Below are positions 4,161 to 37,300 of a stretch of 64,000 bases of DNA, one piece after another. A program made the position numbers and the translations under genes. Under the pieces are notes generated by a model. The model was given only the letters and a program-made list of their open reading frames with translations, ran no database searches and was not told where the DNA came from. Positions within the stretch are counted from its first letter, which is position 1, and each line of letters begins with the position of its first letter. Origin of the DNA: Tubiluchus corallicola (Eukaryota; Priapulida; Priapulimorpha; Priapulimorphida; Tubiluchidae); contig JAQGDQ010000562.1 in NCBI GenBank assembly GCA_030141605.1, positions 62,001 through 126,000 on the forward strand, in the 5' to 3' direction.

Positions 4161-4795
4161 ATACAGTAATGCATTTATCTCATTCTGGATATACAGTAAT
4201 GCATTTATCTCATTCTGGGTATACAGCAATGCATTTATCTCATTCTGGATATACTGTGATGCATTTATCTCATTCTGGATATACAGTAATGCATTTATCT
4301 CATTCTGGATGTACAGTAATGCATTTATCTCATTCTGGATGTACAGTAATGCATTTATCTCATTCTGGATGTACAGTAATGCATTTATCTCATTCTGGAT
4401 ATACAGTAATGCATTTATCTCATTCTGGATATACAGTAATGCATTTATATCATTCTGGATATACAGTAATGCATTTATCTCATTCTGGATATACAGTAAT
4501 GCATTTATCTCATTCTGGATATACAGTAATGCATTTATCTCCTTCTGGGTATACAGTAATGCATCTATCTCATTCTGGATGTACAGTACTGCATCTATCT
4601 CATTCTGGATGTACAGTAATGCATTTATCTCATTCTGGATATACAGTAATGCATTTATCTCATTCTGGATATACAGTAATGCATCTATCTCATTCTGGAT
4701 ATACAGTAATGCATCTATCTCATTCTGGATATACAGTAATGCATCTATCTCATTCTGGATATACAGTAATGCATCTATCTCATTCTGGATGCACA
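4161..4795. repeat. 30-bp minisatellite, about 21 copies
   Basis: Head-to-tail 30-base units built from ACAGTAATGCATTTATCT and CATTCTGGATAT, with point variants only (for example GCATCTATCT in the distal units). Because the unit is a multiple of three, several frames stay open on both strands and give repetitive ORFs of up to 259 codons. These are by-products of the repeat and not a supported gene. Confidence 0.95.
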
Positions 4796-5061
4796 ATAAG
4801 TATCGTTTAAGCTTGAAAAAACTGATTGTAACTTCTAAGTTTGTACATTTGTTGCATAAACCTTGAAATGGTAATTTATGAAGAGTGTAACAACAAGATG
4901 AACACATAAAATTGCTTGTAGCAGCTTTATCAGTTACAGAGTTTATAACTTCACATTGCCGTCCTTCATATACAGCAGCAGAGAAAGTTCTTTGTCTTGC
5001 TGATATTGTGCAACAAACTGAGAAATACTACAAAACACTAGATTTGTTTTTCAGCAGTTTT

Positions 5062-5356
5062 TATGATTTCTGTATCTTGACCATTACTGTAGGACCAGTG
5101 TATCAGTTTTTGTGATTTCTGTATCTTGACCATTACTGTAGGACCACTGTATCAGTTTTTATGATTTCTGTATCTTGACCACTACTGTAGGACCACTGTA
5201 TCAGTTTTTGTGATTTCTGTGTCTTGACCATTACTGTAGGACCACCGTATCAGGTTTTATGATTTCTATATCTTGCCCATTACTGTAGGACCACTGTATC
5301 AGTTCTGATGATTTCTGTATCTTGACCATTACTGTAGGACCACTGTATCGGTTTTT
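5062..5356. repeat. 49-bp minisatellite, six copies
   Basis: The phrase TGATTTCTGTATCTTGACC recurs at exact 49-base steps (starts 5064, 5113, 5162, 5211, 5260, 5309), each followed by ATTACTGTAGGACC with few changes. There are no spacers between units. It lies only about 270 bases after the 30-bp minisatellite. Confidence 0.93.
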
Positions 5357-5359
5357 CTT

Positions 5360-7309
5360 TTTTGCAATTTGTGCAAATTTTGCACTTCAAAAATGTCGAA
5401 ATTACCAATGAAAACAATATGCCGCACACCAATCTGTGATATTCATTAATGCAGAAGTTTAGCCGTTGATGCTTCGTTGGTTTTTTGTGATCAATTTTCA
5501 GTTACTGTTTATTGGACCTACTTCAAGAATTGTACCGGAGGGGTCGATCTTTTTACTCGTTGTTGTCATTATCGCCGTTGTTGTCTTTACATTGTGGCCA
5601 GGATTTTGTTTAGGACTGCTTAAAACTTGTATTCTTTGCATATAGTATTATTACTAAAAGAGAGACTACTACTTCATGATGCCCAAAGTCAAAAAATTCA
5701 TGTTTGAGTAGCTTTATTACATTTTATCTGTAAAAAAATCATAACAAAATATAACAAACTAATTTGAGCCCAAGAAGAAACAAGGAAATTAATAATAAAG
5801 TGAGACTGAACAATCAAAATAAACTTACATCATGGCTCTACTACTCTTGACAAATAAATGGTTTAACTGAGACAAAACAACAACAACTCTCTTAGCCAAG
5901 GACAGACTGCCAACTAACCAGGTAAACTAGCTCTGTCAGTAGAGCATGACAGAAAGAAGCCAAGTCAAGACATACATACATGAATGCAGTTAAAAAGGAC
6001 AGTATAGGGGGTTTACAGAATGAAAGAACACTGAAGTACAACCTAAAATCCTTCACAAAAATAATATCAGAGGTTTGGGAAAATGTGAATGAATTTAATT
6101 GCATAGAGCTGAATACAACCCAATCCATCAATACGTTGTGCCAGCAAGCCAGAGCAGGATACTTTTAGAAGTCTTAGCAACATGATTATTGATCATGCTC
6201 CTCCTCCACTTGGAATTTGTACAACGGCCGATATTGATTTAATCATTTACCTGTGGAATGCTTACCTAGGTAACTCACTTGCTGAGTAATTAATGATGTT
6301 TGCTGTGCAGTGTGTTAGTTGTGGCTGATAATCAAATTTAAGATTTTTTTGAGTTTGTGGTTAACAACTAAAAATAACAAATACTGTTACTGGCGTCATC
6401 AGCTGTTTTTATGTGTGAATGTGTGCTTATAGGAGCTGGCTAATAAAGACAGTTTATCTCTTACTGACCGCTACTTACTGCTGTTAAAGTAAGATGCTAC
6501 AAATTGAGATTTAAACATTGAAAAGGTTCATGCTGTTTTTATTGATTTTAGTTACCAGTAGTTAATGACAACGATTCAAGGAGTGCAGAAGTTTGTTTGT
6601 GAAAACAATTCAATGTAAATGAGTTTCTTATGATAGTGTTTTGTATAAAGTTAAAGACAAATATATGAAAAACTGGATTTTAAACACTTTTTCTAACTAG
6701 TCTGTAAATTCAATAGTTTGCTTTTAGAATACGGAGTTCTGTTTGCTTTTAATTAGTGTTCTAAGTAAGCGTGCTCAGGGGGTATAAACCTGTTCTAAAA
6801 TTAGGGGGAGCAAGCATATAAAATAGGCACCGTGATAGGCGAAACAGTTATATGTTTGTCTATGCCACAACAGACAGTATCATTGTGTCATAATAATTAG
6901 ATTTGCGGCTATTTGATCCATTGGGACAACATGTTAACCTTGACAAATGAGTTGTGTAAATGCGCACTCATTTCAGAAACACGGGAGGAAGGTTCATCAA
7001 ATAAAGTAATGACTTCAGAAAACTCTTCCAAGGCCATACCATTAAAAAAATAACGATTCGACTTTTATTGCACAAGTGAACTGAAAGAGTTAAAGAAATT
7101 ATTTAAAAGGTGCCAATTTTGAAAAATGCACATTGTGAGACCACTTGCTCTCTTTGCTTCTCTTTTAGCTACGTCACTGGATGTGCTGCGTCAGTGGCAA
7201 AAACTTAGACTCTAATAACACCTGGGAACACTTATTGTACGCTTTGATAAACTGTAATGCCTTATGTGTTTATTGCTTCCTTTACACTTCTGTGTTTTTT
7301 TGCTTTCAG
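5360..7309. other. Region upstream of the NEK gene
   Basis: AT-rich, with no recognised coding sequence. It presumably contains the NEK promoter and either a 5'UTR intron or an outron, because the first coding exon begins at an acceptor site. A degraded hAT-like right end (reverse complement begins CAGTGACGTAGCTA) lies near 7169-7181. A convincing left partner was not found. Confidence 0.4.
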
Positions 7310-7328
7310 AAAATCAGAAAACGAGTTC
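7291..7328 (+). promoter_or_regulatory. Splice acceptor and 19-nt 5'UTR of NEK
   Basis: A strong polypyrimidine tract ends in TTTGCTTTCAG at 7309, and the start codon follows 19 bases later. This is either a conventional 5'UTR intron acceptor or a trans-splice acceptor. Confidence 0.75.
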
Positions 7329-10300
7329 ATGATGCAACCAGCAGCAATGGATATTGACCCCAGCATGATGTCACAGAATGATCCACGATACGAATGTTTA
7401 GCTAATTTTGAAATTGAGAAGAAGATTGGTAAAGGTCAATTCAGTGTCGTCTATCGTTCTCGATGTAAGAGTGATGGTACAATTGTGGCTTTAAAGAAAG
7501 TACAGGTAGGTTTCAAATACACCTGGCATTCTCACTTGTTTATGTCTATTGCCCTATGCAGCTTTAAATAAATTTTGACTCTATTTTGTCGCTGTCTGGT
7601 ATTTCCAAGTTTACCAGAGAGCAATGAAATAGTTTTAACTTCAAAAAAGAAATGCATGCATCTAAAATGTTGAAATTCATCACTAAAGAGCAAGTTTTGT
7701 GATACAAACCATACATCATAACAACTAGATTATTTTTACATAGAATTTGACTACTTTTAATCTGAAAAGACTGAATAGTGCTAGTTTACTGGGTTAGACT
7801 TAAAGTTTCAAAGTCCCCCAATTGCTTAGATGGTACTTCGCTTGAGGCATTTCACCTAGAGAAATTGTCAGAGTTGGTGTCTTTTCATTTTCTTTGAGTT
7901 TAATTCAAATGGCTGTGACACATTTGTGAAACCAATAATCACGCCAAAATGCATAGGTGACTGGTACTGATACTTCTCCAGTAATATCAAAACGTAAATC
8001 ATAAAATACAATTTCTGATAATACTAAATACGCCAGTAATACATTTTTTCCAAGATTTTTGAGATGATGGATGCAAAAGCGAGGCAGGACTGTATCAAGG
8101 AGATTGATTTGCTGAAGCAGCTCAATCATCAGAACGTGATACGATACCTGGCTTCTTTTATTGAGGATAACGAGTTGAACATTGTACTGGAACTAGCTGA
8201 TGCTGGAGACCTGTCTAGAATGATAAAGGTAACGTTGCTGAGTTTCCTCTTGCATTGTATATTAAGTCAGACAGTTGCGTACAAAATTAGACTGTATATT
8301 GATTGCTGAAAGAAGTTGCCATGGAGATTATGATGCTGTTGCTTTTTTATAGAAGTAAGTAATACAGTATGTTCTGAGACCAGTCAGTGATTGATTTCTT
8401 TCTTGCAAAAAGTTTTGAAAATGTGTCATTTTGCTATATGACTAGTCAGCAATTGCACACACGCACGCACGCACACACACACATTAATTAGTAACAGTAA
8501 AATACAAACTTGCATAATATCATTTATCAGGTTGATACCTGACTAATCCAAGAACTTGAAAACGCTATCAATCTAGTGATCTTGGACGTCCAATCAGTGG
8601 GGCAAGACCAGATCAGTGGTTTTCAACTTGATTTCTTTCATCTTTGCTATTGACATTTTGGTTAACAATTTATAGTGTTCCAGAAGCCAGCTAGTGTCAG
8701 AAAGTATCTGTGTGTTTTATTTCTGTTCTCTAGCATTTCAAGAAACAGAAACGGCTAATTCCTGAAAGAACAATATGGAAGTATTTTGTGCAACTTTGTA
8801 GTGCACTGGACCATATGCATTCCAGGAGAGTCATGCACAGAGGTCACTTCCTTTCTACATTCTTTAAATCACAATTTTATAAAGTAATCTTTTAATACAA
8901 GTAAATCTTTTTTACATTTTTAAAGCATCATTGGAGTTCCGTATTTTCACGTGTTTGTTTAATGAACTGCAATAAAATGAAAAATTCTAAACATTAATTG
9001 CTTCTTTAAATGAGTTCCCTGCTCTGAGTTCCCAGATCAGACCTGCTCTGTGTTAACAAGACTGCTTAATGTATAAATGTTTTCTACAGATATAAAACCT
9101 GCGAATGTGTTCATAACTGCAACTGGTATAGTCAAACTAGGAGACCTTGGTCTAGGAAGATTCTTTAGTTCAAAAACTACAGCAGCGCACTCACTAGGTA
9201 ACTACTGTTAAATATTTTATCATCTCTTGGTAAGCTTAGGCACTGTTTCATATCTGCTCATCGAGAGAGGGTTGGTTTCAGCGTATTAGTTTTACTGTAA
9301 TAAATAAATATCATCATTTCACATTCAATTTGCAAGGCTGTTATAAAAACTTGTAATTAAGTTAAAAAGTTTACCTTTTTTATTGATATGTAATGAAATT
9401 TTTCTAAGTAATGTCCATATTTTAAATAAGTGTATTAAAGCCCGAGAGAAACTCCACAAGACTTGGACAGTTAGCATTACTCAGCATTTCTGCTTTACAA
9501 AATTTCACCAAACTCAGATATTTGTGAATTTGTGTACGAGGTCTTTAATCCCTCCAATCAGTTATTTCAATTGCGAGTTTAATTCAGTTTTTATATTTGT
9601 TTATATTTATAACTATGAGAATAATGCTTATTATATGTTTGTTTGTGTGAAGACAGTGTACAGTACATGAAGGTGCCAGCTTTTAGGAATTAACATGTTG
9701 TTTATTAGCACAAACAATCATTTCGACATCAACTCAGTTCTCAGAACATCTTTCTAAGTTATTTCTAGTTGTTTTTTGACAATTTGAATTTCACTCTCAT
9801 GATTGTGGAATGATGTAATTTATTTTATGCTTTGGTTAGTAGTGTGATAATTGTACTGATCATTTGTTTTTCGCTTAATTTATAGCATTGGAAGTGGCAG
9901 TTGCTGTCCAAATGATCGTCCGCGCTAATAAACAACATGTAAACAGTGTACAGTACTTTGATCAGATTTCAGTTACAGACCAATAACTTATGATCATATC
10001 ATTACCATGCATCCTGGATTGCTTTAAAGCTCTTTCAGTTCATCTAATAATTTGCCTATACTTGAAATCTTCTAAATATTCTGATGCTAATTTAATCAGT
10101 GTTTGTTTAGCTATTTTAGAATGATATGGTTAGACGAAAAATATATTTTTTTCAGTTGGAACTCCATACTATATGTCGCCTGAGAGAATACATGAAAACG
10201 GTTACAATTTCAAGTCAGACATTTGGTCACTGGGTTGTTTGCTATACGAGGTGAGTGTTGTTTGTAATTTATTAGTCCAATGTTCGGTGAGAAGGATTTG

Positions 10301-12283
10301 TCTTCAGTTGTGTTTAATGGGACGGGATTTGTCATACAGCTCTAAACTTGGACATATTATATTCAGTAGTGTTAGAGAGGCTATACTAGAGACACTAGCT
10401 AATATAACTATAGCTAGATGACTATAGAAAAATAAAAACAGTGTCCCATAGCTACATACGTACATTGTTATAAAAAAAGATTTTAGATAAGCCATAATTT
10501 AACAAGTAACGGGTCCAAATATGTTTAGCCTAAAACGGCAGCATCAGACTATAATTATATCAGCGTAAAAAGAAATTTAGCTTAAATGATAGGTTTGGTT
10601 TTTCATCTAACCAAAATACAGTGCATTCAATGCAGTTTTTTCTATTTCACCAGATATTAGGAAGCTTAGAGATGCATTAAACACATTAACATTAAACACG
10701 TTAAACATTACTAATACAGAGCTCTGTAATTGCTGCTTAGACACTCACACATGTAAACACGTATTCACTTGTGTGCTCACACCCTATCTGACTCATTCAT
10801 CTGTTCTAGTACTTATCTCTCCCATACACTAACCCACTCGTCCAATCTCTCATCATTCATTCTGTGGTTCACTCCTGCCGCTTAGCTAGATGCCTACTCA
10901 CTGCTTTGGTGGCTTACTAAGTTAATATTGGGTTTTAAAACAAAAAAACTGTTAAAAACTTTTAAAAACTGCTGCAAATTCAAAAATGTTGTTTCACAAT
11001 TTGTTGGAAGCTTTAAGATGTGCATTTTTCTTCCCTATGAATTGCCTTGTATTTTTTCAGCAACTGGAGTTTCTGCTAGTAGTTATAATGAATTGGTCCA
11101 TTAAATTTCACTTTGTGTACACTTCAGAACTTACTTTTTATTTTTATTCATAGATGGCAGCACTGCAGTCACCATTTTATGGAGACAAAATGAATTTATA
11201 TTCATTATGTAAAAAAATAGAGAACTGTGATTACCCTCCATTGCCATCGGATCACTATTCTGATGAGGTAAAGAGTTTAAAGTAAATATTTGCTTTGTGT
11301 GTGTTTTTTTATGAACAAGTAACAGTTCAAAATTTGAGTTGACTTGAAGCCACGCTCCCATAACTCATGCCACATTAATTAATCATGCAGTTTTAATTAA
11401 ACAGATTTGGGCTTTTTAGCAGTAGTTGACTTAATTTAATTTGCACTTGCTTTTACCTACTGTACGAATGTGTTTTCAACTCTGTTATTGACAAAAACTA
11501 TTACTCAAATACAGTGCTGATTTATTAACAGGCATAGTAGTCCATTGGCTTAAGGACCACGGGTAGCTGTGTGCCCACTGAAACTAATTTGCTGTGCATT
11601 GTGCCAGCATATAACCTTGTTTCAAGCATACACCGGATATTTCATTTTGTAATATTATCAAAACCACAAGTGCTCCTGTGCAATAAGTACAGGGCCAAAT
11701 TTGGGGGCCCACTGATGAGTTTAGCCTAGGACCCACAGGTAGGTAAATCAGACACTGCTCAGCTACTCAAAACTTAGTAGTAATAATTTTATAATCACTT
11801 ATGGAGCAGCTTGATTTTTCAATTACCTTCATGTTTTTTATTGACTTATTCCCAATTTAGCAAGTTCTCATTAAGTATTATAATTATAATAGTGATCTTC
11901 TAATAAAAATTTATTGTATGAAAAATTTTAAAAGCTGTCAACTCATTGTACATATCAATTTAAAATTGTTGATTACTGCATGGTACATCAGATACAGTTG
12001 ACATGTAAGATGTGCATAAAATGATTCCTCAAAATTTATATCAGATAAACAGAGATGTAAGCAGAGGTGTAATGTTTTTATAATCAAATCTAATTCTTTT
12101 ATTCATCAGTTTTTTCAAAACGAGTTCTTGTCAGTTATTTGTTTTTCTCTCTTGTAGCTGAGACATCTAGTCAATGCCTGTATAAATCCAGATCCGGAGC
12201 AACGACCGGATGTATCCTACGTGTATGATATTGCAAAGAACATGCACGCTGGAGGTGGCGCCACTGCTGGTGACTGTCAGTGA
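7329..12283 (+). CDS. NEK7: NEK6/NEK7-type serine/threonine kinase
   Basis: NIMA-related kinase that in animals acts downstream of NEK9 in spindle assembly and cytokinesis. NEK7 also licenses NLRP3 in vertebrates. Seven coding exons: 7329-7505, 8055-8228, 8734-8842, 9090-9197, 10156-10250, 11154-11267, 12158-12283. All have GT-AG borders and give 300 aa; human NEK7 has 302. Visible features are a short N-terminal tail, glycine loop GKGQFS (34-39), catalytic Lys56 in ALKK, HRD loop MHRDIKPAN, DLG in place of DFG, and activation-segment residues [15 protein letters not shown] that include the NEK7 Ser195 equivalent. Tyr90 matches the autoinhibitory Tyr97 of NEK7. The start was chosen as the first ATG in the exon after the acceptor at 7309; a second ATG follows directly. 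The protein is almost collinear with vertebrate NEK6/7. Which of the two it corresponds to cannot be decided, and it probably predates their split. Confidence 0.94.
8455..8483. repeat. (CA/CG)n microsatellite
   Basis: CACACGCACGCACGCACACA-type run in NEK intron 2. Confidence 0.85.
11512..11757. mobile_element. hAT-like MITE in NEK intron 6
   Basis: The left end CAGTGCTGATTTA and the right end (reverse complement CAGTGTCTGATTTA) form terminal inverted repeats around a 246-base insert with no coding capacity. The flanking octamers CTCAAATA and CTCAGCTA match at 6 of 8 positions, fitting an old 8-bp target-site duplication. Terminal CAGTG and an 8-bp duplication are typical of the hAT superfamily. 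Confidence 0.6.
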
Positions 12284-13890: not shown

Positions 13891-14130
13891 GTGAATTTAG
13901 GTGGAAATATGAGCAGTACAAAACTTTATCTTACATGCATAGAGTTTTGTTGTGGTACTAACTTCATAGCTTTGTTTTTGAAGTATAGAATATGAACAAT
14001 GAAATTTTTGAACTGGGCTAACATACACTTGCCTAGCTTTTGTTTTACCAATTGTATTGAGATATTCATACAAATGTGCTGAAGGTGTGAAAAAAACATA
14101 TTTTCTGTATTGTACAAGTGACCACACTGT

Positions 14131-14535
14131 CACTGTATGAATGTGCAAGTAATCTTACATTCACCGTATGAATGTGCAAGTCATCTTACATTCACCGTAT
14201 GAATGTGCAAGTAATCTTACATTCACTGTATGAATGTGCAAGTCATTTTACATTCACCATATGAATGTGCAAGTAATCTTACATTCACCGTATGAATGTG
14301 CAAGTAATCTTACATTCACCGTATGAATGTGCAAGTAATCTTATATTCACCGTATGACTGTGCAAGTAATCTTACATTCACCGTATGACTGTGCAAGTAA
14401 TCTTACATTCACCGTATGAATGTGCAAGTAATCTTACATTCACCGTATGACTGTGCAAGTAATCTTACATTCACCATATGACTGTGCAAGTAATCTTACA
14501 TTCACCGTATGAATGTGAAAGTCATTTTACATAGT
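14131..14535. repeat. 31-bp minisatellite between convergent genes
   Basis: About 13 head-to-tail copies of a 31-base unit of the form TATGAATGTGCAAGTAATCT plus TACATTCACCG. Each unit carries the dyad ACATTCAC...GTGAATGT in imperfect form (CATTCACCGTATGAATG). Degenerate relatives continue to about 14630. It sits between the NEK and BET 3' ends. Confidence 0.93.
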
Positions 14536-25300: not shown

Positions 25301-28300
25301 ATTACAGCAGGTAATCAAAGACTATAGGCCTATATGGTTACCAGAGCTTGTTTTTGCAGCTGAAGTTTCAACTTGATTTGAAGGCGATCAATAGTGTAAC
25401 TTGTATAGTTAAGAAAACCAACCAATAAAAGTAAGCAATTTCCCTGTAAACTTGTGGACTGAAAATTTCTTTTTTTACTACAAAGTGAGCATGACTTATT
25501 TTTGAGAGAAATCAGACCTTTTTTCTGCTTTGTTGATTTTGTTGAAGTGGTTGCACTGCTATTCACCAGTTGTTGACTATTCACATCCTTCGAGGGTTTT
25601 TCAATCTCTGGTTTTGTTTCTTTCTGTGCGTCTTCTTTTGATTTTCCAGCTGCACTTTTAGCTACAAAATAAATATAGACAAATTTCCTGATATGTTAAA
25701 AACTGACAGCCACACTAATATATCATATATTATTATATATATTATCATATATCATATATTATATATCATATATATATATGTATGTATATATACATACATA
25801 CATACGTACGTACGTACGTACGTACATACATACATACAGAAAACAATTAACAATTTGCAAGTATTTACAACTGTTAGAATTTGAATTTCTACTGTAGCCT
25901 TAATTACTGTGAGCTGCAAAACTGGCTTTATAATTTATAGCTAAGTAGTTGCTATCTTTATAGCAAAGATAATGTAGAATCACTTATTAAAAGGGACGTG
26001 TAATACATAAAAGATTATGTGCAGTTAGTCCTCATTTAACAACAATTAACTCCACAGAACATTTACCACCTCATCTCACTTAATGACATATATTCTATTC
26101 TAATGAGGAATTCTTAGCCACACTTTGAAAACTAAAATTCTGTCTGATAGGTTTATACTTTATAAACAACTAGCGTTCAGCCCAAATCCTATGCGAATTT
26201 ACTCAGTACCGATTGTTACAACAGGCTGTCACAATCTATTCATGCAAAGACACCACCATTAACAGATCATGTTACAATATGCTGCATTATTTCATTATGG
26301 CTGGTTGTCAGAAACTATTACATCTCTATGATTTATTATTGGTGCTAAACATAAGAAATAAACCCGTCCTGTCTGATAAAATTCCCATGTTACATGTTGG
26401 ATAACTGATGCACTGCTCACTTAGAGGAGTCTGCTTTGCTTGGCAAATGTACACATTGGGTTAATTGCACTCATCAGTCATTTTATTTGCACTTATGTTG
26501 TGGAAAAGCAACAATGTCTATAAAGATTTATCAGCAAATATATATAGCTAGGACCAGAAATGCAATGCTCTGAACTTATCTTAGTAAAACTAGAGACAAC
26601 TCACAAAAAGCGCTGAAAAAAATTAAAGCACAAAACAGAAACATCAATAAACACGACTAAAATAAGCTATGCAAGAACCAAGATGAGAAAAGACAGAAAA
26701 ACTGCTATCTTTATGAACTGACGCTCTAATCTTAATATGCAGCAGCAGAAAGTTTGCATATTGTTAATGGTAACAAAGCTAGAGTTCACAAAAGGGTTCC
26801 ACATGAAGAAGTGTGATCAAAGCTCAGGAAAAAAAACATGCTGCAAATCTGTGATGACATTATCGTTTTAAATAATATTATCATGTCTTGGAACGCATGC
26901 GTGTTTTTTAACATTATTTCTACAACGGCTTTGTTTAAAGACAATTCATTTAATGCATTAGTGTCCTTAAGCGAGGATGACTGGACGATAAAGAAAATGA
27001 GGAGTATAGAACAAAAAATATGCTGGCAGTTCTTATGATGATTTTACAATGCAAAGTCTTGCCATACCGATTCAGATATAAATTGAACAAACTTTTACCC
27101 AATTACCAAAAGTGTTTTCTATATGAAGTAACCATAGGCACTTACTATATTTCCTAGGTTTCTTTCTAAGTACAGAAGCCACATAAGACTCCAGCTCACG
27201 TAGCGTCGATGCTCTTAATGTTTCAAAATCTATTTCTATTTCATCAGGATTTGAATCTCGTAGCGACGGTTCTCTCGACTGTATAATGTGAACAACCTTT
27301 CCTAATTTGTCCCCTAAAGAAAAACAAAATCAATAATAGCTTTTGTGAATGCGGGTAAATAATATCTAATGTCAGTAATATCTAACATTATTTCACACAA
27401 AAGCAAAGAAGAAGTAGCAAACGAGTCGTATTGTCTACAATTAAACAAAATCACTTTAACACCTACTTACTTTACTGCAGTAAGTCCTCACTTAACGACG
27501 CTAATGAGTCCAGCAAAGCAGGTCGTTAAGCGAAACATCGTTAAATGAAATATTCTTTTCCATAAGAAACAAATTAAAAGCATTTAGTTGCATTCCAGGA
27601 GCAAAAATCAATAGTGCTTGGCTATGCAATGTTTGCAGCAGGGCGAAAACTACTGAGCGTGGCTATGATAAAAGGTTCAGTTATCTTGCAGGAGAAAAAT
27701 AGTAATCTTTGGCTCATAAATTAAACACTATATGATTTATTGTTTACAGTTCTACAGTGCTTCTTTAATTAAAATATTACTAATACTACCAGCGTTGTGT
27801 TGGTGGCAGCTAAAATGCAAATGAAGTGAATGCAGCAATTAGCTATCTAACAGGAGAGTTTTATCAGCTGAAACTCTTGCATTTTATCAAGAAAAATCTT
27901 ATCTAAATGTAGGAAAGCAATCAGTCATCATGGCCTGCCTATAGCTGTAGTTGATTGTTTGCTGTCGGTTTGGTTGTGCTACGGTGATCTGGATTAAATG
28001 GCGATCTTCTTAATAGAGTACAAGTGCAGCAAATAAGATTTTAGTGTTTAAAGTAAATTAAACAAATCGGCGTTAAAACGAAGCATGAGACGTTAAGTGC
28101 AAAAAGGTGTCAAATGATTAGCGTCACTAAAACGAAATGTTGCTAAGCGGTGAGTCATTAAGCGAGGACTTACTGCAATTAAAATAATTTGTAAGGTAGT
28201 GTATCAACCTTTAAATGGAAAAAAAACAAAAATAAAAACACATTGATCATTCATCATCATCATTATCATCATCATCTTTTTCATCGTCACCATTGTCATC

Positions 28301-31300: not shown

Positions 31301-34300
31301 TAAATAAACACTTAATAATAATAGTAATATATTAAAATTCTGCAAATGTACCAGTGCTACCATAATCTTTAAACAGACCTAAAATTATTAATAAAAAGCT
31401 CTGTTTAAAGTATACATGCTTTTATGAACATTCTCGGCATTTGGCTTACATTCAGCCTACTAAGGTAAAAATAATATTAAATATGAAAGCACACAGGGCA
31501 ACTATCAACTGGTAAATGAAACTGTAATCTAGCAGACCACAGCAAAATGTCAGCTTATAAATGAAATGGTACAAATAATTACAATACATTTCAAAACGCA
31601 AGAACACTAAGAATTTTTACCCCAGCAACGGCAGCATTATTCTACACATTTATTATTATAAAAAGATTGTATCAGTATTTTACAGGAAGAAAAACCCTGC
31701 GGTACCACACTGTCAGAATAACAAACTGAAAACCTTTGCCACACTTACGGGTTCAACTTTGATTGGTTTCTCATCCTCTTCTTTCTTCTCTCTGTGTTTA
31801 TGTCGCTTCTTCTTCTTTCCCCTCTTTAACGACTTTGATGCAGAAAGGACTGCTAGCTGCTCGTGTACGGCTTTTAGCTACAGCAAGAGTAAAATTAACA
31901 ATGAATTACCAATAGACGTTGGTTTATAATGAATTTACAATACAAAAGCAATCAGAGAAAACTAAACACCTGTGCCTGCAGTTCTTGCAACCGTCGTTCA
32001 CGTTCTGCCTCTGACTCCTCATCATCGCTTGCATCCGAAGAAGAAGATGATGCAAGGGAAGCATCCGATTCGGCTTTTACGTGGTCAGGTTCATCATTTT
32101 CAACTACTGGTTCATCGGGCATTTTTGCATATTTCATTTCGAAAACATCCTACAGTCAAAAGAAATGTGTGAACTTTCTAAACTGGATAATAAATATGCT
32201 TTTCAATGTTCAAGAAATCTCCATAAGCCAATAACAATTGGCAGCTTTTGTCGTGCTTCAGTATTTTATTTACAATGGGCAGCAGGTCGGTGGTTATTGA
32301 TGCATGAGTTACCAGTCTATTTGCATCGTGTGTTTACAGTGTGGTACACTCTAACAAATTTCATACAGCATCCTAACATACAAAAACTTTTGTGATATGA
32401 TTTCAGTTTCTAGTAACTACTCTCATAGCAGTGCTATACATGCACAGTAATACTGATCTCAACAACACTGTCCGTGATCATTTTTTCTATACTAAAAACT
32501 CTTTGAATGACATCATTTTGCATAACTGGTAGGACGAAATGAAATGTATAGAGCATTGCAGATCACAAGCCAATAAATGAACCTGCTAACAACAATTATA
32601 CCGTCTAGCCCTGAAATAAATGAAAATAAAAATGATTGGGTTTGATGGCGAACACACCCTGCACTAATGAAGAAAATATGGCAGATGAAATCATCCTCAA
32701 GCATTTTATATGACAGTTCATTTGCTAACGAGGTTCACATACGCCTAAGTATGCCATATGCCGCAAGCCACTCATTTACCGTCATACGCTCGGTACTGCT
32801 GTAGTTGGTAAGCACGTGACAAAACCAATCAGGCAGCTTCCTCTTTCAAACTACCCATTTTATAAGCAAACACAAGCAATTAAAGTTACCAAAAACAATT
32901 TTTTTGATAACTTTGTTCAAGAAAGAGACATTTGTAATCAGTAATTCTCCAGGGTTTTTTAAGCAGTGGCACACTTGCTTTAAGAATATTTGCTAAGACA
33001 CTTTATCTAATATATTATTACTTTCAGTTCTAGAAATCAGAAAAGATATTTGGTGTTGTCTAAAGACAAAAAATACGTCAAAGGGCAAAAGATATGAGAA
33101 AAATGTTCTTAGTATGTGCTCTATGTTGGAAAGGTCACCGAATCTACAGTTTTTAGATAGCATGTTGAGAAAATTATCAACATACCTCAGTTTCAGTAGC
33201 TCGCCCGAAATGTTTTAGAGATGAAATAGAGTTTACACTCAGATTACTTATACAGGTAGTCATTGACTCACAACCAATCCGCAATCCACTGTTCCACTTT
33301 ATGACCCGACCAAAACTTAATTATTTAATTATACAAAACCAACTATAACACATATTTCCCTCTATTTTTTTAAACAATTAACTTTAAATCGTTATCTGTT
33401 TCGATCAATTCATCGCCGCCATATTTAGTGCGAGTACACACACAACTTCTTGCGCGTAATGGCACATCGCTTTAATATAATGGACAGACTAGCGAGCAAT
33501 TCCTCTTATGACCAATCATGCCGGAATGTACTGTGGTCGTAAGTCAATGACTACCTGCACTCAGAACCAAAAATCCTGAAGCATTTTAACTTTCAACAAA
33601 AAACACAGCATCTTCACAACTGGTTAAAATGCATCCACTCTTATCTTCCTAACAGCAGAAATCACAAACACTGCCACGACAGAAGCAAACAGTGAACGCA
33701 CAATGTACATGAAATGAACTCACCTGTAATTTCCTAGCCATACCAACGACATCGTGATCAGGTGGATTGTACTTGTAGCAATTAGTGAAGATTATCCGTA
33801 CGTGGGCGGCAAATTCTTCTGGTGAATGATATTCACGATTTTCCATCTTTTGCTATAAAATCAGTCATTTAATATTTCATATGCAAGAAAAATAATAGTG
33901 AGTAATAAAAAGGAAAAAAATCTTTCAAGTCAGTAATACACACAAAGACAGCCTATTTCCAAATCACACAGTACCAGTTTTGTAAAGACAATACACTGCA
34001 GATTTATTTACTTAACAAAGCCAAAGCTGTGAAATCAATGTAAATAAGAAATGTTCCAAATAACAGATGTATAAAACTGCAATCAAAACCTACAAATAAT
34101 AAACAAACTGTATACACTTATTAAAGGCCTAAATAACCCCAACAGACATTGAAGATCTTTAAGCATTATTATGATTACGCAAAGGATTCATAGTTATTAT
34201 TAAACAAAAAGAGACTTGTAAATTAAATAACTTACGTGTTTTCTGGTAAATTTCGAATGCGTGCATTGCCGTAAAAATCACCATGTTCGCGTCTTTGATG

Positions 34301-37300
34301 CGAGTGAGCGAGAATGACGTATGAGGCAGACAAAGCGTCTTTGGTCACCGATGTTTATTTATTGATCTTCGGTGATCTCGTGACTACACTCATAATGTCA
34401 CTCGTCCCGCGAAACAAAAAATTTGGCGGTTCTTCAAATTTAATACCACTAACGATGAAGTGATAAGAAATAAGTTTATAATACACTATGCATAATGAGA
34501 GTACGATTTTAAGTTGCAAAAGCTTATATTTTAGTGAGGGTTTAGTTTAACTTTAATGCAGCCCAACAGAGCAATAAACTTTGAAAATTCTTTGCCATAT
34601 ACTTGCATTTTGACCAGACCACAAGAAGCAAACAAAAAGACTTGTTAGAGAAAAATGGAATTAATGAAAGTGAGTTACCTTAATTGTACCGAGATCCATG
34701 GGCTGTTTGATGATGTCATGGTAGTCATGCAGTCCTAGTGACTCGGCATCAACTGGCTTATAAAATGGCCAAGCGTAAGTCTGAAATCAGGCAAGAACAT
34801 GATATAAATACTACAGGTGAAAATTGTGTAACACTGATAGTAGCCATACCAATATGCACAAACATGTGTATAATATCTACGCAATGTAAAAATAATATAT
34901 ATGAGAAAGGAAAGTGAATTGGTTTCTGAGTTCTGCAAACATAAGAAACAACTGGGTCAACAATAGTGAAGAACCTACAAGTTGTAGAACACAACAATAT
35001 ACTCACAGCACAAAAAACAACTGAGTCAACAATAGTGAAGAATCTACAAGTTACAGAACACAACAATATATTCACAGCACAAGAAACAACTGAATCAACA
35101 ATAGTGAAGAACCTACAGGTTACCGAACAAAGCAATATATTCACAGCACAAGAAACAACTGAATCAACAATAGTGAAGAACCTACAAGTTACAGAACACA
35201 ACAATATATTCACAGCACAAGAAACAACTGAATCAACAACAGTGAAGAACCTACAAGTTACAGAACACAACAATATATTCACAGCACAAGAAACAACTGA
35301 GTCAACAATAGTGAAGAATCTACAAGTTACCGAACAAAGCAATATATTCACAACACAAGAAACAACTGAGTCAACAATAGTGAAGAACCTACAAGTTACA
35401 GAACACAACAATATATTCACAGCACAAGAAACAACTGAATCAACAATGGTGAAGAACCTACAAGTTACAGAACACAACAATATATTCACAGCACAAGAAA
35501 CAACTGAATCAACAATAGTGAAGAACCTACAGGTTACCGAACAAAGCAATATATTCACAGCACAAGAAACAACTGAATCAACAATAGTGAAGAACCTACA
35601 AGTTACAGAACACAACAATATATTCACAGCACAAGAAACAACTGAATCAACAACAGTGAAGAACCTACAAGTTACAGAACACAACAATATATTCACAGCA
35701 CAAGAAACAACTGAATCAACAATAGTGAAGAACCTACAAGTTACAGAACACAACAATATATTCACAGCACAAGAAACAACTGAATCAACAATAGTGAAGA
35801 ACCTACAAGTTACAGAACACAACAATATATTCACAGCACAAGAAACAACTGAATCAACAATAGTGAAGAACCTACAAGTTACAGAACACAACAATATATT
35901 CACAGCACAAGAAACAACTGAATCAACAATAGTGAAGAACCTACAAGTTACAGAACACAACAATATATTCACAGCACAAGAAACAACTGAATCAACAATA
36001 GTGAAGAACCTACAGGTTACCGAACAAAGCAATATATTCACAGCACAAGAGACAACTGGATCAACAATAGTGAAGAACCTACAGATTACCGAACAAAGCA
36101 ATATACTCACAGCATGCTTTTTTGCAAACAGTTCTTTTAAAACGTTATTGCAAAACTTTAACTGTTCAGTCAATTTCTTGCTTTTACTTTTGTCGACAGC
36201 CAGTGGTTGCTGAAAAACAAGACAAAGATTATTGCAAAGGTTGTAGACACACAATCAAGGATATATAACATAACTTAAATAATATAAAACATTTCTACGT
36301 GGAAATTTTGACTTGTAAGCTAAGAGAATGTAGCCAAGGCATGAAACAGCTAGGTCCACTTTAATTAAAACAAAGCTGCGATTAACTTGACAATGTTCAT
36401 CTCACCTTAGTTTAATTAGATGAACTGCAAGGAAGCAAAACATCTTGCCCAACTAAGGTAGCTGACAAAGGATGAGGAAAAAACTACCAACACTGATGAC
36501 GAACAAACCTGAGATTCAGCGACTTGTATCTGAGAATCCGGCAAATCTTTAGGCGGTCGTTTGATTTCTCTGCCGCTACCCCGTCTGGTAGCCATTTTAG
36601 GAGCCGCAGGTGAAGAAAGTGATGGAGCGTATGGTGGATCAAACGGGTCGCTAGCTGTAATCGTTGAAGGTGTTGTTGTGTCAGCTTTCCTCTTTACCCC
36701 TTTTTTCGGCTGTAAAATGCAAAGGCAACCAAAACGATAAAACCACCCTTATTTCTAGCTAACAAAAGTGCTGCTTACCTGTTTTATATTCGAGTAGAAC
36801 TCAAACAATTTTTGTCAATATAAGCAATTTAAAGAAAGTAAAATATGGTAACATATGAATAGTGAATATATATATATATACATGTATAATATGTCTAAAA
36901 CTCACACACATGTAAAGTGAATGATAACTTAGGTTTTTAGATACCATTCATTCGTGTCATTGCAGATGCACAAATATACAGAGGAAGCTTCCGTACAAGG
37001 CTCTTTTGTATGGACTAGTGATAAAAGAAAGTGTAAAAGTGACGTACTTAACATAAGCTGTGAATTGACATGCAATATAATGAATCTTTGCACTAAATAT
37101 TACTGGACATTTATCATCTCATATTTTGACATGGAGATGGCACTATCTGAGAAACATACTATCAAACTTACAGACTGGCCTTCTCTTGCCATATTATTAT
37201 AACAGAGTATAATAATATTACAGAGAATAATATAATTATATTATACAGAGTGTAATTAGTAATTTAAAATCCTAAAAAATGGCAAAAGTTTGCACGACAC

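Follow-up and report, generated by a model that had tools for sequence, protein, structure and literature searches.

The window, which is the whole 64,000-nucleotide stretch of Tubiluchus corallicola DNA that was analysed, contains a BET-family gene (BRD2/3/4-like) on the minus strand, and this gene hosts a long minisatellite. The gene was recognised by its second bromodomain and its extra-terminal domain: PF00439 (Bromodomain) and PF17035 both scored above cut-off, PF00439 as a part-match at 33649-33852 on the minus strand (E 4.7e-10), and the bromodomain exons aligned to BRD4 BD2. Exon numbers are those of the initial annotation, with its count of the 5' exons taken over as it stands. The features used below are as follows (positions in the window; a slash within a motif marks an actual or potential splice position).

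36111-36209, minus strand: exon 7, 99 nt; end of the linker and what we take to be the first helix of bromodomain 2 (gene model, alignment to BRD4 BD2)
34781-36110, minus strand: intron 7, 1330 bp; 226 bp when measured from the distal donor
34943-36114, minus strand: 17-copy 69-bp minisatellite (TRF: 17.0 copies, 95% matches, no indels)
36105-36111, minus strand: proximal (exon 7) donor T/GTGAGT in copy 1; U1 duplex -7.4 kcal/mol
35070-36042, minus strand: 15 interior donor words, all GTGAAT; computed for copy 2, -1.7 kcal/mol
35001-35007, minus strand: distal donor T/GTGAGT in copy 17, candidate site; U1 duplex -7.4 kcal/mol
34679-34780, minus strand: exon 8, 102 nt; inside bromodomain 2
33724-33852, minus strand: exon 9, 129 nt; further portion of bromodomain 2
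31970-32149, minus strand: exon 10, 180 nt; holds the end of the match to BRD4 BD2, plus a serine/acidic stretch
27072-27329, minus strand: open frame encoding the extra-terminal (BET, PF17035) domain, E 1.2e-15; assigned to the same gene as exons 7-10

Without the array, splicing exons 7-10 together at GT-AG sites gives 170 aa, stop-free in frame 0, which match positions 1-83 of the Bromodomain profile (E 4.1e-22). The BRD4 BD2 alignment (best chain E 2.2e-86) is gap-free across the exon 7/8 joint (FAKKHA/TYAWPF). An Rfam search of the window at gathering scores gave no structured-RNA match. Elsewhere in the window, the plus strand carries open frames that resemble exons of a protein kinase (7251-10421), presumably NEK6/7-like.

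A minisatellite spans the exon 7/intron 7 boundary

The array is genuine and beyond chance. It occupies 88% of intron 7 (1168/1330 bp), starts 4 nt inside exon 7 and ends at 34943 according to TRF, rather than at 34966 where its edge had initially been placed. Each 69-bp unit opens with TGCT, the four bases that close exon 7 (TGTT in copy 12), and continues with the donor word GTGAAT or GTGAGT; the unit thus lies across the exon-intron boundary, and the donor of copy 1 is the exon 7 donor itself. The word TGTAG/GTTC, previously attributed to every unit, was present in 15 of the 17, while copies 12 and 16 read TGTAGATTC. The plus strand of the array is likewise open (34945-36213, 422 aa), without coding evidence.

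Three queries (the DNA of the array, one unit and a 27-base pattern) were run against the 343,548,820-base assembly and matched this locus alone. No dispersed copy of the unit was detected outside the array with the 69-bp query (E up to 10) or the 27-base pattern (up to 3 mismatches), searches that weak matches may escape. An origin of the unit from a transposon or dispersed repeat was rejected, as these searches found no second copy elsewhere in the assembly. With the array or 1485 bp of flank as query, no second haplotype was found in the assembly.

Minisatellites are dense in this genome. Eleven stretches were surveyed (104,105 bases, 85,742 of them non-N) for arrays with a period of at least 15 and at least 3.5 copies, and 20 arrays were found, approximately one per 4.3 kb. 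Very long arrays occurred in the sampled stretches (17 bp x 91 at L002:7739-9293; 37 bp x 68 at L003:1-2500, reaching the start of that stretch). The window itself holds further minisatellites at 4161-4790 (30-bp units, three frames open), 5055-5356 (49-bp units) and 14130-14532 (31-bp units). The 49-bp array starts directly after TTTGTTTTTCAG, an acceptor-like word; no exon was placed there.

Donor words at the edges and in the interior of the array

The initial annotation had described an array with GCT/GTGAGT at both ends and GTGAAT in those interior copies that it had read. Both observations hold: GCT/GTGAGT is found in copies 1 and 17, 16 units (1104 bp) apart, and GTGAAT in all of copies 2-16 (15/15). 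The junction coordinates given there (36111, 35007 and 34780) are also right by the gene model. Donor strength was estimated as the ViennaRNA duplex with the U1 5' end, a predicted pairing energy only. Ten other donors of the BET gene, picked by eye and with slightly unequal window lengths, ranged from -5.3 to -12.4 kcal/mol. By predicted U1 pairing, in which the two outer donors are equal and copy 2 is poor, the distal site seems usable and the interior sites seem poor.

The open reading frame of the array

The exon 7 frame is stop-free, as had been reported, with no stops over 16 units, while the remaining two frames of the minus strand carry 32 stops each. A splice from the distal donor to exon 8 would keep the frame, again in agreement with the earlier reading, and give 538 aa across exons 7-10. 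However, neither an open frame nor a period divisible by three is unusual. Of 191,023 69-mers sampled from the window outside four arrays, 23% were open in a given frame and 56% in one or more of three; of 20,000 dinucleotide shuffles of the unit, 24% were open in a given frame. At least one of six frames was open in 10/20 surveyed arrays, in 5/9 of those with a period that is a multiple of three and in 1/3 of those longer than 1.1 kb; the surveyed arrays are mostly shorter than the BET array, and having any one of six frames open is less demanding than having the frame of the exon open.

Distinct changes against the consensus unit were scored in the exon 7 frame. There were 7 synonymous and 10 non-synonymous changes and no stops (n = 17), the expected shares being 0.29 for synonymous changes and 0.02 for stops (transition weight 4). 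At that stop share, zero stops among 17 changes is the expected outcome. A stop-bearing frame on the same strand gave an identical 7:10 split. Selection on the encoded repeat was consequently rejected, with no signal in the codon changes; the protein constraint that would mark an exonised coding repeat was not seen, at the low power of 17 changes. The consensus unit is hydrophobic (mean Kyte-Doolittle 1.6) and contains 3 Cys.

The insert would fall inside bromodomain 2

The insert encoded from the distal donor had been placed just before bromodomain 2. This was wrong, and the joint lies inside the domain: with the array included the match to the Bromodomain profile begins only at position 16, without it at position 1, and BRD4 BD2 aligns without a gap over the same joint. 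As judged from this difference in the profile match, the joint falls between the first helix and the WPF shelf, as these are named in BRD4 structures, within the acetyl-lysine-binding module. The 368 mainly hydrophobic residues at this joint would be expected to break bromodomain 2.

Intron age, array edges and homogenisation

A bromodomain query matched four stretches of contig C516, where a second gene, called BET-like from its bromodomain exons alone, lies at 671201-674936. It has the same phase-0 intron after KHA (GCG/GTAAGT), 259 bp long and with no array, and reads SYGWPF where the array gene has TYAWPF. Because this paralogue has the same intron without the array, the intron looks older than the array. 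The collapsed form of intron 7 shared only chance-level words (7-13 bases) with the paralogue intron. The end of exon 7 reads GCATGCT and the far array edge reads CTTATGTTT; ATG is common to both breakpoints and is possibly a 3-base microhomology of the duplication. A toy estimate of how often an array edge would fall within 4 nt of a splice site in a 1330-bp intron gave approximately 1% per array, and is too crude to lean on.

The edge copies 1 and 17 alone hold the G at donor position +5 and the C of a CCAG 47 bases further on (0/15 interior copies for both). By count of differences, the two edges side with separate interior types: copy 1 is closest to one of them (copies 2, 9 and 15, at 4 differences), copy 17 is closest to the other (at 5-7), and copies 1 and 17 are 10 differences apart. 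All four combinations of states were present at 16 of the 36 informative site pairs, which supports that the units have exchanged segments, or else mutated repeatedly. With the two edge-only states, this is the pattern of inner homogenisation with excluded edges. We know of no splicing role for the C of CCAG; because the edge copies share this second edge-only base, the exclusion of the edges from homogenisation can explain their GTGAGT.

It had been proposed that selection or homogenisation keeps the interior donors weak. The site pairs favour the homogenisation half of this proposal, with repeated mutation as the possible other source. The selection half is not needed, since one founder change that spread, not fifteen changes, explains the +5 pattern; being a single event, it is evidence neither for nor against selection for weak donors.

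Comparison with known arrays

The kind of array is already known. In the human ABCA7 intron-18 VNTR (PMC5954066), the array adjoins the exon and its first bases are the exon 18 donor, as at the BET locus; there, the donor one unit downstream can serve as a cryptic donor, and the resulting one-unit retention causes a frameshift. The ABCA7 unit is 25 bp, lies in a C-rich region and shifts the frame, whereas the BET unit is 69 bp and frame-neutral, its interior donors are weak at +5 and its strong extra donor is the far-edge copy. The amphioxus 'mirages' (PMC3087553) are tandem repeats over exon-intron boundaries, many with splice words, with inner concerted evolution and excluded edges, and were suggested to be harmless to regular splicing. 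The BET array resembles them in its boundary-spanning units, its splice words, its inner homogenisation and its excluded edges; however, the amphioxus globin units are 150-160 bp, and the BET unit includes only about 4 exon bases. In human duplicated genes, according to a third report (PMC2812944), minisatellites at exon-intron boundaries are retained or spliced out. The BET minisatellite shares their location, but such internal tandem repeats can form novel introns, and the BET intron looks older than its array. Within this kind, what is particular here is the combination of a frame-neutral unit, weakened interior donors and an intact far-edge donor. Neither the BET locus nor a repeat-inserted BET isoform was named among the matches listed in the open-licence PubMed Central literature.

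Interpretation

We favour, with good confidence, an intronic minisatellite that spans the exon 7/intron 7 boundary and is normally spliced out from the proximal donor, the distal donor being latent. The first step would have been a duplication of about 69 bp, which covered a few terminal bases of exon 7 together with the beginning of an intron of roughly 226 bp. The array would then have grown and been homogenised in its interior by conversion or unequal exchange, the edge copies retaining the founder GTGAGT while one G-to-A change at donor +5 presumably spread to all interior copies. In most pre-mRNA the proximal donor would be joined to exon 8, which leaves bromodomain 2 intact; use of the distal donor may occur at a low rate and would break the domain. 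This history is consistent with the TGCT of exon 7 and the donor within the unit, the intact Bromodomain match without the array, the edge-only states, the site pairs with four combinations, the array-free paralogue intron and its length (259 bp, against 226 bp for intron 7 from the distal donor), the 20 arrays in the sampled bases, and the like anatomy and edge exclusion described in amphioxus (PMC3087553). Against it, the distal donor is on a par with the true one in predicted U1 pairing and is nearer to the acceptor, which could favour distal use; the single haplotype found shows no length instability of the array, and the site pairs with four combinations could also come from repeated mutation.

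It is unlikely, although the best of the alternatives, that donors or acceptors of the array are used at a low level and yield non-functional transcripts and less working BET protein, as proposed for the ABCA7 VNTR. One example would be a 37-nt exon that begins at the TGTAG of copy 16, ends at the distal donor and carries a TGA in the exon 7 frame. The strong predicted pairing of the distal donor fits this possibility, as does ABCA7 itself, where splicing from a donor one unit inside the VNTR is reported to shift the frame and lead to a premature stop (PMC5954066). On the other side, the pyrimidine tract of the acceptor-like TGTAG looks poor by eye, and no length variation of the array was seen with the one haplotype found.

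Regulated or tissue-specific use of the distal donor, producing a BET isoform in which a hydrophobic 23-residue unit is repeated 16 times, is very unlikely. The insert is in-frame and stop-free, and the end donors are equal in predicted strength with a weak one between them, but open frames are common by chance, the hydrophobic, Cys-containing repeat would split bromodomain 2, the internal exon would reach 1203 nt (99 + 1104), and the 7:10 ratio is no different in a stop-bearing frame of the same strand. We regard as highly improbable a length-tunable off-switch, in which the far-edge donor would insert a frame-neutral hydrophobic block sized by copy number and leave only bromodomain 1 active, the homogenised weak interior donors limiting splicing to two outcomes. 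That tandem duplication of an AGGT-bearing segment created intron 7 itself is barely credible, in spite of the TGTAG/GT words in 15/17 units, as the C516 paralogue has the same intron, in position and phase, without an array, so the intron does not appear to have been absent before the duplication.

On the favoured reading of a normally spliced-out minisatellite with a latent distal donor, the minisatellite has made 16 copies of a splice donor in a gene that presumably stayed functional. Its 2 strong-looking and 15 weakened donor copies in one context form a natural contrast, and the array could serve tests of the choice between near-identical donors and of whether homogenisation or selection disarms the extra ones. 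If the distal donor were used, a change in copy number would alter a chromatin reader.
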